Shown here piece after piece: positions 2,203 to 35,432 of a stretch of 36,057 nt of DNA; the first letter of the stretch is position 1; each line of letters starts with the position of its first letter. The stretch lies in contig JACSRN010000057.1 of the NCBI GenBank assembly GCA_014879735.1, positions 1 through 36,057 of the forward strand. Direction: 5' to 3'. The notes beneath the pieces are model-generated. The model saw only the letters and a program-made list of their open reading frames with translations. It was not told where the DNA came from and made no database searches. This DNA comes from Paracoccaceae bacterium. GTDB taxonomy: Bacteria > Pseudomonadota > Alphaproteobacteria > Rhodobacterales > Rhodobacteraceae. The translations under genes were made by a program, and so were the position numbers.

Positions 2203-2470
2203 GCCTGGCCCCGCGCGCCCGCGCGGGACAGGCCAGAACACCAGCGCATAAACTTCGACGGCCTGTCCCGCGCCCGCGTGGGACGGGCATATCTGGAGAT
2301 CACATGTCCGACCCGACCGGAGCCTGTCCCGCGCCCGCGTGGGACGGGCCCTTCCACGGCGAACGGACTTCATCCTTTCACAGCTTGTCCCGCGCCCGGG
2401 CGGGACGGGCTTCGCACCTTCCCCAACGGCGGCAGCGTTGCCGCTTGGTCGCGCGCCCGCGCGGGACGGA
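2203..2470. CRISPR. small orphan CRISPR-like array, type I-E-like repeats, degenerate
   Basis: Five copies of a 28-bp GC-rich near-palindrome start at 2203, 2261, 2322, 2383 and 2443. Copies 2 and 3 are identical, with core GTCCCGCGCCCGCGTGGGAC. Copy 4 differs at three positions. Copies 1 and 5 carry indels and substitutions, as end repeats often do. The shared anchor GCGCCCG falls at 2270, 2331, 2392 and 2453, exactly 61 bp apart; copy 1 is off-register (55 bp). Intervening segments of 32-33 bp are unrelated to each other, and two of them are visibly less GC-rich than the repeats. The 61-bp period and the anchor offset match E. coli type I-E repeats. A sixth, loop-deleted copy may lie at 2146-2168. 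No cas gene is in the window. Alternatives are a cluster of palindromic (REP-like) elements or bidirectional terminators between convergent genes. The rest of the gap, 2471-2736, shows nothing I recognise. Confidence 0.6.
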
Positions 2471-2736: not shown

Positions 2737-4170
2737 CTAGTCCAGATAGGCGCGCAGCGTGGCCCTGGTCCCATCGGCCCAGAGCCGCTGCAGCCAGCGC
2801 GCGAAGGCCGCGGAGAAGCGGGCATTTCCGGCAAGCCCGCCATAGACCGAGGTCATCTCCAGCCAGGCCTGCGGCCGCAGCCGGGCGGCAGCCGCCCGCG
2901 CGGTCAGCGCCTCCCAGTCGGGGTCGTTGGGTGCGATCACGGCACCGCTGTCGGTGGTTGCAGCGCAATAGCGGCACCACAGCGCCGAGACCAGCGCCAG
3001 CCCCTCGACCGGACCGCCGGCCGCCAGCGCATCGCGAAGCGACGGCAGGATGAACTTCGGCTGCCGGTTCGATCCGTCGAAACACAGCCTGCGCTCGGTA
3101 TCGGCAATCTCGGGATTGGAAAACCGCGCGCGGATCAGCCTGTAATAGGCCGCGATGTCGGTGCCGGGAACGGGCGGCACATAGGGGATCACCTCCTCGG
3201 CCTCGACCCGGTCGAGAAAGGCAGAGATCAGCGGATCGGCCATCGCCTCGTGCACATGCTCGATCTCCATCAGCCCGCCGGGATAGGCGATGATCGCATG
3301 CCCGCCGTTCAGGATGCGGATCTTCATCGTCTCATAGGCATGGACATGATCCGAGAAGGTGACGCCCACCCGGTCCAGCGCCGGGCGGCCGGCGGGGAAA
3401 TTGTCCTCGACCACCCATTGCCGGAACGGCTCGCAGGTGACGGGGACCGGGTCGGCAAGGCCGAAGCTGGCCGCCATCTCCCGCTCGCGCGGGCCAGTCG
3501 CCGGGGTGATGCGGTCGACCATGGCATTGGGAAAGGCCACGTTCGCCGCGATCCATCCGGCCAGTTCGGGATCGGACAGCCGGGCCAGCCCGGTGACGGC
3601 ATTGCGCGTGACCAGCCCGTTCGAGGGCAGGTTGTCGCAGCACATCACGGTGAAGGGCGGCGTGCCGGCGGCGCGGCGGGCCTTCAGCGCGGCCAGGATG
3701 GCACCGAAGGCCGTGGCCGGCCGGTCGGGGGTCCGGGCATCCGCCACGATCTCGGGCGCGGAGGGATCGAAGGCGCCGCTGCGGGCATCGATGAAATAGC
3801 CGCCCTCGGTGACGGTCAGGCTGACGATGCGGATCGACGGCAGGCTCATCGCCGCGATCAGGCTGCGGTTGTCGGGCTCGACCGGCAGGAAGTCGATCAT
3901 CGCGCCGACGCGACGGCAACTGCGACCGGCCGGATCAAGCTCGATCACCGTCGACAGGCAGTCCTGCGCCCGCAGCGCATCGCGCATCGCCGCATCGGGC
4001 GCACGCACCCCGGCGCCAAGGATCGCCCAGTCGTGCCCCTGCCCCAGGTTGAACAGGTCGTCGAGATAGACGGCCATATGCGCGCGGTGAAAATTGCCCA
4101 GCCCGATATGGACGATGCCCGGCGTCAGACGGCTGCGGTCGTAGGCCGGAAGTGCTGCGGTCCTCTCCAT
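2737..4170 (-). CDS. mtlK: mannitol 2-dehydrogenase (polyol dehydrogenase)
   Basis: This enzyme oxidises D-mannitol to D-fructose with NAD+, and family members also accept D-arabinitol and related polyols. The 477-residue length equals that expected for Rhodobacter MtlK. The N-terminal Rossmann segment reads IVHIGLGNFHRAH (residues 19-31). The catalytic signature of this long-chain dehydrogenase family, KxxxxNxxH, is Lys283, Asn288, His291 in MKIRILNGGH. I chose the ATG at 4170, one base after the smoS stop codon (TGAGATG); an upstream ATG would bury the start in smoS. It is the last gene of the polyol operon. Xylulokinase and fructokinase genes reported after it in Rhodobacter sphaeroides are absent here. 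Confidence 0.93.
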   Translation of the reverse strand: MERTAALPAYDRSRLTPGIVHIGLGNFHRAHMAVYLDDLFNLGQGHDWAILGAGVRAPDAAMRDALRAQDCLSTVIELDPAGRSCRRVGAMIDFLPVEPDNRSLIAAMSLPSIRIVSLTVTEGGYFIDARSGAFDPSAPEIVADARTPDRPATAFGAILAALKARRAAGTPPFTVMCCDNLPSNGLVTRNAVTGLARLSDPELAGWIAANVAFPNAMVDRITPATGPREREMAASFGLADPVPVTCEPFRQWVVEDNFPAGRPALDRVGVTFSDHVHAYETMKIRILNGGHAIIAYPGGLMEIEHVHEAMADPLISAFLDRVEAEEVIPYVPPVPGTDIAAYYRLIRARFSNPEIADTERRLCFDGSNRQPKFILPSLRDALAAGGPVEGLALVSALWCRYCAATTDSGAVIAPNDPDWEALTARAAAARLRPQAWLEMTSVYGGLAGNARFSAAFARWLQRLWADGTRATLRAYLD

Positions 4171-4171
4171 C

Positions 4172-4938
4172 TCAGGCCATCCAGTTGCCGCCGTCCACGC
4201 CGAAGCACTGGGCGACGATGTAATCGGCATCCGGCGTGGCGAGGAACACCGCCATGCCGGTCAGGTCGGCCGCCGTCGCCATGCGCCCGAACGGCACCGC
4301 ACGGCCGACTTCCTGCTTCTTCTGCCCCGGAGGCTTGCCCTCGTAGCGGGCGAAGAATGCATCCACCCCATCCCAGTGTTCGCCGTCCACCACCCCCGGG
4401 GCGATGGCATTGACGTTGATGCCGTGGGCGATCAGGTTCAGCCCGGCGCTTTGCGTCAGGCTGATGACCGCCGCCTTGCTGGCGCAATAGACCGCAACCA
4501 GCGATTCGCCCCGGCGCCCGGCCTGGCTGGCCATGTTGATGATCTTGCCGCCCTGCCCCTGCGCGATCATCTGCCGGGCGGCGGCCTGCATGCAGAACAG
4601 CGTGCCCGCCACATTCACCGCAAACAGCCGATCGTAGTCGGTGCGGGCAATCTCGGCGATGGGGGCGGCCGAAAACAGCGCGGCATTGTTGACCAGGATG
4701 TCCAGCCGCCCCAGCTCTGCCACCGCCGCCGCGAACCCTGCGTCGATGCTGTCCTGCCGGGTGACATCCATGTCCACCGCCATCGCCTGCGGCCCGAGGT
4801 TCCGCGCGGCGGCCCGGACCGCCTCGCCGTTCACATCGGCCAGCGCCACGCGGGCGCCCTCGGCAATATAGGCGCGGGCGAATTCCAGCCCGATCCCCCG
4901 CGCCGCGCCGGTGATCAGCGCGCATTTTCCCTGAAGTT

Positions 4939-21433: not shown

Positions 21434-21967
21434 TCAGACCTTGTCCTTCAGCGCGCTTTCCCAACTCAGCACCTGCACGGCCATGCGACCGCGCCTCCCC
21501 TCGACGATCCGCAGCGCCACTGCCTCGCCCGAGACAAGATCGGCGAGACCCGAAACCCGCAGCACCTCCACATGGATGAACACATCCTCCGGACGGCCGA
21601 AGACATTGGCAAAGCCGAAACCCTTGCTCTTGTCGAACCATTTCACCCTTGCGGGCTCCATCGGCAGGTCAAGCAGCGCATCCATGGAAAGGCCGCCGGC
21701 ATCGTCGCCCAGCGGGACAGACACGCCTTCGGGCGGCTCGATCTTCAAGACTTCGACAGCCTGCACGCCGCGCGGTGTGGTCTGAATCCGGACGGTGATA
21801 CCCGCGCCATCGGCAACCGAACTTTGCCCGAAATTGCGAAGGACGTTCGCATGCAGGAGAATGTCGGCGATAGTGCTCTCGCTGACGATGAATCCGAAGC
21901 CCTTGGCCGGATCGAACCACTTCACCCGGCCTTGCAATACCTGCACGGCCTTCTCTTCTTCCGTCAT
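21434..21967 (-). CDS. double cold-shock-domain protein
   Basis: A 177-residue protein with two cold-shock domains. The first is at about 12-75 (GRVKWFDPAKGFGFIVSE, then DILLHANVL). The second is at about 107-170 (ARVKWFDKSKGFGFANVF, then DVFIHVEVL). The RNP1-like KGFGF and RNP2-like VFIH motifs are intact in domain 2; domain 1 has ILLH in place of VFVH. The acidic linker (about 76-105) is typical of the alphaproteobacterial two-domain form. It should bind single-stranded nucleic acid and act as an RNA chaperone. It is followed, two bases on, by the DUF192 gene. Confidence 0.92.
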   Translation of the reverse strand: MTEEEKAVQVLQGRVKWFDPAKGFGFIVSESTIADILLHANVLRNFGQSSVADGAGITVRIQTTPRGVQAVEVLKIEPPEGVSVPLGDDAGGLSMDALLDLPMEPARVKWFDKSKGFGFANVFGRPEDVFIHVEVLRVSGLADLVSGEAVALRIVEGRRGRMAVQVLSWESALKDKV

Positions 21968-30500: not shown

Positions 30501-31466
30501 TCAGCGCTGCGTCCGCGCCCAGTGATAAAGGCAGATCAGGTCATAGGCCACATGGGCGCCGGCAATGGCGGTGGCGCCGGTGGTGTCATAGGGCGGTGAA
30601 ACCTCGACGATATCGCCGCCGACCAGATTGATCCCGGCCAGGTCGCGCAGCGCCGCGGCCGCCTGCCAGCTGTGCAGCCCGCCCCAGACCGGAGTGCCGG
30701 TGCCTGGCGCCACCGAAGGGTCGAGACAGTCGATGTCAAAGGTCAGATAGCAGGGCCGGTCGCCCACCACATCCTTGGCCACCGCGACGACATGCGCGAT
30801 GCCGCGCTCATGCACCTCGCGGGCGTCGAGAACGCGAAAGCCGAGGTAATCCTCGGTGGTGGTGCGGATGCCGATCTGAACCGAGGTCGCGGGATCGACG
30901 ATCCCGGTCTTCACCGCCTTGTACATCATCGTGCCATGGTCGATGCGGGTCAGGTCGTCATCGGGCCAGAGGTCGGAATGGGCGTCGAAATGGATCACCG
31001 ACAACGGCCCGAACTTCTCGGCATAGGCGCGCAGGATGGGATAGGTGATGTAATGGTCGCCCCCCAGCGTCACCGTGCCCGCCCCTGCGGCAAGGATGGT
31101 GCGAATATGGGCGGTCAGCCGGTCGGGGAAATCCGCGATCCTGGCATAGTCGAAGGCCAGGTCGCCGTAATCGATGACCGACAGGTCTTCCAGCGGATTG
31201 GTCGGCCAGCCATAGGGTGGATCATAGGGCTGCAGTGCACTGGCCTCGCGGATGGCGCGGGGACCGAAACGGGTGCCGGCGCGATGCGTCACCGCCTGGT
31301 CGAAGGGCACACCGGTGATGGCCAGGTCGACGCCGGCCAGATCCTTGCTATAGGTCCGGCGCAGGAAGCTGGTTGCGCCGCCAAACGCATTTTCAAAGGA
31401 ATAGCCCCGCAAACCTTGCCGGGTGAACGCAGTGTCGACCTGCGTCTTTGCATCTTCGAGTGCCAT
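30501..31466 (-). CDS. speB: SpeB-family ureohydrolase (agmatinase)
   Basis: A 321-residue manganese-dependent ureohydrolase, probably splitting agmatine to putrescine and urea. All metal ligands are present: His138 (GGDHYITYP), Asp161, His163, Asp165 (DAHSD), and Asp244, Asp246 (FDIDCLDP). The GTRFGPRAIREAS segment (64-76) is family-typical. I begin at the ATG at 31466 with GAGG upstream; the longer frame has no similarity. A class III aminotransferase of the type that uses putrescine lies upstream on the same strand, which supports the agmatine route. Guanidinobutyrase is the main alternative. Confidence 0.88.
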   Translation of the reverse strand: MALEDAKTQVDTAFTRQGLRGYSFENAFGGATSFLRRTYSKDLAGVDLAITGVPFDQAVTHRAGTRFGPRAIREASALQPYDPPYGWPTNPLEDLSVIDYGDLAFDYARIADFPDRLTAHIRTILAAGAGTVTLGGDHYITYPILRAYAEKFGPLSVIHFDAHSDLWPDDDLTRIDHGTMMYKAVKTGIVDPATSVQIGIRTTTEDYLGFRVLDAREVHERGIAHVVAVAKDVVGDRPCYLTFDIDCLDPSVAPGTGTPVWGGLHSWQAAAALRDLAGINLVGGDIVEVSPPYDTTGATAIAGAHVAYDLICLYHWARTQR

Positions 31467-35096: not shown

Positions 35097-35432
35097 CTAC
35101 TGCTGCCTTCGCAGCGCGACGTCGAGCAGGTCTCCGACCCACTGCAAGTCCTTTTCCGGCAGCACCGCCAGCGAGATCGTAATCTCGTTCAGCTTCGCCC
35201 GCTTCAGCGCCCCGGAAGGAACCTCTGGGCTGAATAGCTCGGCAGGATCGACCTGAAGCGCAGAGGCAATCCGCTCGATCATCGGAAACCGCGCTCCCGT
35301 CGCGCCGACTTCGATCTTGGAGATTGTATCTACGCTGACACCTGCGCGTTCCGCCAGTTGTTCCTGAGTGTAGCCATGACGCCTGCGGTGAGCCGTCACC
35401 AGTCGTCCAAACCGTTTCCGCAAATCGTCCAT
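35097..35432 (-). CDS. XRE-family repressor-like DNA-binding protein
   Basis: A 111-residue regulator with an HTH_XRE domain at about residues 5-65 (RFGRLVTAHRRRHGYTQEQL, then SVDTISKIEVGATGARFPMI) and a short C-terminal part without a sensor domain. It resembles phage or plasmid repressors in size and form. It is divergent from the small membrane protein across a 145-bp gap with repeats that could be its operator, and convergent with the Rep-like gene, 21 bp from its stop. The likely job is to keep the element quiet; this is inference. Confidence 0.85.
   Translation of the reverse strand: MDDLRKRFGRLVTAHRRRHGYTQEQLAERAGVSVDTISKIEVGATGARFPMIERIASALQVDPAELFSPEVPSGALKRAKLNEITISLAVLPEKDLQWVGDLLDVALRRQQ

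Follow-up and report, generated by a model that had tools for sequence, protein, structure and literature searches.

A CRISPR-like array with type I-E-like geometry and a non-canonical palindromic repeat between convergent genes of a Paracoccaceae bacterium

The window analyzed here is contig C200 (36,057 nt; GC 68%) of a Paracoccaceae genome of 4.39 Mb in 201 contigs. A 627-bp intergenic stretch (2110-2736) between two convergent genes hosts the repeat array. The upstream gene (1633-2109, + strand), which follows murA, has homologues in all 13 genus genomes (this one included). It gave no NCBIfam match, and we take it to be DUF2948-like. Downstream of the array lies a convergent polyol dehydrogenase-like gene (2737-4230, - strand), whose best NCBIfam matches, fructuronate reductase and D-arabinitol 4-dehydrogenase, are both below the curated cut-offs. 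Identity to the closest homologues of the upstream gene is 62-68%, and no close sister genome was found. In the 12 congeners, the 720 bases that follow the DUF2948-like gene were judged by eye to be other DNA without such an array. The next gene in several of these congeners resembles what is presumably hisD; in the window, a polyol transport and dehydrogenase cluster stands in its place. Because the neighbor gene of the congeners differs from the polyol cluster of the window, the array site (2110-2736) may, judging from gene order, be a rearrangement point.

The repeat unit, GCCTGTCCCGCGCCCGCGTGGGACGGGC (28 bp), is a palindrome over nearly its full length (12+4+12). Four copies on the + strand start at positions 2261, 2322, 2383 and 2444, with spacings of 61, 61 and 61 bp. 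Copy 1 (2261-2288) and copy 2 (2322-2349) are identical (28/28), while copy 3 (2383-2410) differs from copy 1 at 3 of 28 bases and the degenerate copy 4 (2444-2471) at 8 of 28. A further degenerate hairpin copy, C0 (2202-2234), lies 55 bp upstream of copy 1 and thus 6 bp off register. A weak outlying hairpin copy, C-1 (2136-2172), is also off register and has 25 nt (88%) in common with C0 at a distance of 57 bp. This bears out the preliminary description of the locus as a row of near-palindromic repeats, four of them at a 61-bp period with a fifth copy upstream, and with degenerate copies at the ends (copy 4 and C0). A 26-nt repeat probe (up to 3 mismatches) matched 3 sites in the window versus none in 100 dinucleotide shuffles. 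Divergence from copy 1 rises toward copy 4 (0, 3 and 8 differences for copies 2, 3 and 4), a gradient that resembles an array growing at its left end. However, C0, the leftmost near copy, is degenerate and displaced to 55 bp, although growth at the left would make it the freshest.

The repeats enclose segments S0 (2235-2260; 26 bp, GC 0.50), S1 (2289-2321; 33 bp, GC 0.545), S2 (2350-2382; 33 bp, GC 0.545) and S3 (2411-2443; 33 bp, GC 0.70). With segment borders taken one base further right, similarity among the segments was at the level of shuffled sequence in 12 comparisons (lowest fraction 0.07 of 500). The segments had been described as mutually unrelated and 32-33 bp long. They are indeed unrelated and three measure 33 bp, but the upstream segment S0 has only 26 bp. 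Low GC, first noted for two segments, is instead found in three of the four (S0, S1 and S2). A GC content of 0.58 or less was reached by none of 312 flanking intergenic 33-mers, versus 16% of all 33-mers of the window. Thus, the GC content of the segments is odd for the intergenic stretch and ordinary for the contig. Tandem duplication of a 61-bp unit, with conservation of the hairpins alone, would give a constant period. Nevertheless, all 28 bases agree between copies 1 and 2, yet the segments adjoining them are as dissimilar as shuffled sequence; this explanation, already disfavored on these grounds, is in our view very improbable.

Comparison of the segments with phages and plasmids, proposed in the preliminary description, returned no significant match (best E 0.03), and neither S1 nor S2 has a significant protospacer. 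The single-segment searches covered S0, S1 and S2 for phages and S1 and S2 for plasmids. The match of S1 to a Microcystis phage (23 of 24 bases, E 0.03) and that of the surroundings of S0 to an Erythrobacter phage tail gene (84% over 32 bases, E 0.3) were judged to be due to chance. An exact 25-nt pattern was derived from each of the four segments, with 2-4 positions left free; none matched viral contigs. Of genuine spacers, roughly 10% have a match among known sequences (PMC8616872). At such a rate, missing protospacers are weak evidence against a working array.

The significance of the 61-bp offset was assessed by scanning for direct-repeat pairs at offsets of 40-90 bp in 907,479 sampled bases of the same genome (1,950 masked). 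Pairs were commoner at multiples of 3, the kind of offset seen in coding repeats (18 pairs at 54 bp). At all other offsets they were rare, and 61 bp led these with 6 pairs (score at least 14). Three of the 6 belong to this array, one to a genuine type I-E array and two to other repeats. By visual inspection, the last two were rejected as spacer-type scars, being a ~31-bp tandem repeat and an inverted repeat at a contig end. Pairs at 61 bp that enclose unrelated DNA therefore occur, within the ~0.9 Mb sampled, only in this array and in the I-E array on contig C114, and the sample held no further off-target scar. A sample of 320,000 bases from a congener without a Cas7e match (G012) contained no 61-bp pair with a score of at least 16. 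A near-perfect inverted repeat at a contig end of the genome under study (contig C12, L144, 8604-8732) is perhaps an assembly artefact.

Searches of the genome itself, the 12 congeners and 394 family genomes (own included) revealed no other convincing copy of the repeat. With up to 3 mismatches, the genome contains two weak single sites outside the array, and a 24-nt core found no further copy at up to 4 mismatches in 0.9 Mb of it. In the 12 other genus genomes, 6 matches were obtained at 2 mismatches, versus 11 control matches across all 13 genomes. Among the 394 family genomes, three besides our own had one 3-mismatch match each; a reversed-pattern control gave 13. A looser palindrome pattern yielded one more site in the own genome; in the congeners it matched six rows, representing five places. 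A genus-wide BLAST search with the intergenic stretch as query returned no more than short pieces lying away from the locus (best E 1e-4; up to 40 candidates scored per genome), and the sole BLAST match inspected, on C104, showed no array by eye. GC-rich intergenic palindromes in a row are also typical of REP and BIME clusters. In contrast to these, which are found as many scattered copies, the present repeat occurs at one genome locus and in an exact 61-bp register. A scattered REP-like family, which the preliminary description had named as the finding that would speak against an array, is thus rejected for lack of dispersed copies in genome, genus and family.

The chief rival to an array made by spacer integration is a group of hairpins, in RNA or DNA, maintained for their structure, for example as a barrier or 3'-end stabilizer between convergent transcripts, with the 61-bp spacing being incidental. 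The position between convergent genes is consistent with such a role. All six copies (1-4, C0 and C-1) fold, and the out-of-register copies form hairpins as well. The four in-register copies fold more strongly as + strand RNA (copy 1, -20.2 versus -13.7 kcal/mol on the - strand), and folding of the whole stretch gave a z-score of -4.08 on the + strand versus -1.14 on the - strand. This bias could reflect either a selected RNA hairpin or a crRNA-like sense strand, and it is the strongest argument for a structural cluster. However, the strand preference is not common to all copies, as C0 (-28.7 on +, -32.4 kcal/mol on -) and C-1 (-11.5 on +, -13.4 kcal/mol on -) favor the - strand, and the best fold of the whole stretch pairs the copies with one another rather than forming hairpins in a row. 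A scan for terminators (hairpin plus T run) found no site, leaving the earlier suggestion of bidirectional terminators unsupported. The best Rfam matches (E 0.34-4.8, about 20 bits) fell far below gathering scores of 92-120, which speaks against a known RNA family. Moreover, incidental spacing fits poorly with three exact 61-bp intervals around unrelated segments, and the absence of further copies in the genome is unlike REP or BIME families. On this evidence a structural cluster is a possible explanation, though the less likely one.

A complete type I-E cas locus is present in the same genome on contig C114 (L032, 1-8739), with Cas3, Cas8e (481 bits), Cas11e (136 bits), Cas7e, Cas5, Cas6e, Cas1e (475 bits) and Cas2 encoded on one strand. 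Cas1e, Cas8e and Cas11e were called by PADLOC, and Cas2, Cas3, Cas5 and the Cas6e- and Cas7e-type proteins by protein families; the names Cas6e and Cas7e are those we assume for the matched Pfam families. Cas11e (Cse2) was recognized by PADLOC and missed by Pfam and NCBIfam. The genome contains only one Cas1 match and one Cas7e match. The contig start truncates the C114 array, leaving two repeats in a 61-bp unit at this contig end. Cas7e was also detected in 2 of the 12 other genus genomes (G001 and G003), the negatives of this family search being weak because it misses the E. coli control. These two congeners carry 24 and 13 canonical repeats, a count that excludes one isolated 6-mismatch match in L078, with units of 61 bp (one of 60) and spacers of 31-32 bp. 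The mean GC of their spacers is 0.62 and 0.64 (range 0.41-0.78), and the GC of the window segments falls inside this range. No spacer is common to the window array and the arrays of G001, G003 or C114 (best score 9).

The canonical type I-E repeat consists of a 6-bp CCCCGC/GCGGGG stem and an ATRAACCG-like 3' handle. Both elements are seen in the repeats of C114, G001 and G003. In alignments, the window repeat shows neither the CCCCGC-N4-GCGGGG stem nor an ATRAACCG-like 3' handle, and it differs in stem, loop and handle from the canonical C114 repeat, GGCTCCCCCGCCCCCGCGGGGATAGACCT. It aligns best with the G001 repeat, at a score reached by a fraction of 0.001 of 2,000 hairpins with shuffled arms; the best score against any of four I-E repeats was reached by 0.0095. 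Alignment to the repeat of the own genome and to the sequence we take as the E. coli repeat was weaker (fractions of 0.04 and 0.08 under that null). Since these alignments require gaps, the likeness to the G001 repeat is suggestive only. As to the alignment with the E. coli repeat that was first reported, GCGCC does occupy the same position, but random hairpins attain this similarity at fractions of 0.08 and 0.02 under two null models.

Scans of flank GC, of a motif and of IHF-like sites found no leader beside the first repeat. Both flanks of the array have 70-90% GC in 30-base steps. The motif TTTGANATCG adjoins the genuine arrays of C114, G001 and G003; it is absent near the window array, its sole occurrence in the window being at 30731. 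No IHF-like site with 0-1 mismatch lies near the array, although the scanned stretch beside the C114 array has none either. The observation that no cas genes are visible holds, as PADLOC identified none among the 26 proteins of the window. Its matches were a cold-shock domain, an ABC ATPase and a helix-turn-helix protein; those to cold-shock-domain and helix-turn-helix control-protein models lie at 21437-21967 and 35100-35432.

The window array thus resembles the type I-E arrays of E. coli type (as in G001, G003 and C114) in its 61-bp unit with unique segments, apart from C0 at 55 bp, in its short GC-rich inverted repeat and in a similar GC content of the segments. It differs from them in that its 28-bp repeat is almost perfectly palindromic and lacks both the canonical stem and the 3' handle, and in having no leader and no adjacent cas genes, with both ends degenerate. 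The I-E-like character first proposed is therefore supported by the geometry, but not by repeat or leader, and because of the latter two we do not file the locus as a type I-E array. The possibility that it is served by cas genes elsewhere gains from the complete I-E locus on C114, which has the same period, but the repeat of that locus is canonical and different. For an active second array, processed and used by the C114 Cascade, the difference in stem, loop and handle is compounded by the missing leader, the degenerate copies and the lack of protospacers, and we give this explanation hardly any credence.

We favor, with moderate confidence, the explanation that I-E-style Cas1-Cas2 integration produced a short repeat-spacer array of CRISPR type at this locus, which is now orphaned, leaderless and probably inactive. 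Directly seen are the geometry, the unrelated segments, the confinement of the repeat to this locus and the complete I-E cas locus elsewhere in the genome; spacer integration by a Cas1-Cas2 of I-E type, most likely the builder, agrees with the exact geometry, the unique segments and the locus-private repeat. Each integration event would have duplicated the 28-bp hairpin and added a 33-bp fragment, giving exact 61-bp units. Later the array would have been orphaned and left without a leader, probably neither growing further nor conferring immunity. It is thus probably a fossil or misplaced immune memory and not a working one.

Orphan arrays are usually put down to the loss of cas genes. Two origins could account for the present case: a diverged I-E array may have lost its leader and left this relic, or an off-target array may have begun at a hairpin similar to the inverted repeats of the I-E repeat. 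Wherever copy 1 departs from the canonical repeat, copy 2 does so in the same way, suggesting that the odd repeat probably predates array growth; simple decay of a canonical array would then not explain the repeat. Loci made by non-canonical Cas1-Cas2 integration are termed neo-CRISPR. A natural event of this kind, in which the cell's own I-E Cas1-Cas2 would repeatedly have integrated foreign fragments at a repeat-mimicking intergenic hairpin outside any CRISPR locus, is a tentative and rather doubtful proposal, for which the required Cas1-Cas2 is present in the genome.

Non-canonical integration outside arrays upon overexpression of Cas1-Cas2 is attributed to Nivala et al. 2018 (as cited in PMC11788318; also cited in PMC9456107). 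Cas1 of Sulfolobus islandicus is reported to prefer stem-loop DNA, and the authors propose that an accessory factor blocks integration at stem-loops elsewhere (PMC9456107). Compared with the loci of Nivala et al. 2018, the window array would be similar in that a local sequence acts as the repeat around inserts in a host with Cas1e and Cas2; it differs in having several units instead of one and in that the parent site is not seen. A further difference is that no IHF-like site (0-1 mismatch) lies near the window array, as is also the case for the C114 stretch. Titles and abstract openings of the literature surveyed make no report of natural neo-CRISPR formation in bacteria evident, and the experimental precedent cited relied on overexpressed Cas1-Cas2 (PMC11788318). 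An array of several units, with a non-canonical palindrome confined to its locus and a host that still carries Cas1e-Cas2, would be a natural test case for the birth of a CRISPR locus.

We also searched for comparable loci in a collection of genomes from 84,980 species, from which near relatives of the window may have been left out, using a gapped pattern of two cores with 59-63 bp allowed. This tandem-core pattern identified three loci in unrelated bacteria, all three at exactly 61 bp, a regularity that counts in favor of I-E-style integration. An earlier scan of the collection with a longer core had given no matches, and viral contigs contained no match to the tandem-core pattern. No Cas7e match was found in the three genomes, which counts against that reading, though by a search that also misses the E. 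coli control. In Peptidiphaga gingivicola (L041, 6161-6305), the members of a perfect 31-nt pair are spaced by 61 bp, and a degenerate copy lying 53 bp upstream overlaps the stop codon of a gene. The metagenome-assembled genome BP5.bin25 has a perfect 28-nt pair with 33 bp between its members. If the window array did arise as a neo-CRISPR locus, the Peptidiphaga locus with its copy at 53 bp and the single 28+33-bp unit of BP5.bin25 would be parallels by analogy. The third locus, in Candidatus Bilophila faecipullorum (L043, 5078-5525), contains four different degenerate direct-repeat pairs side by side, at 60-61 bp.
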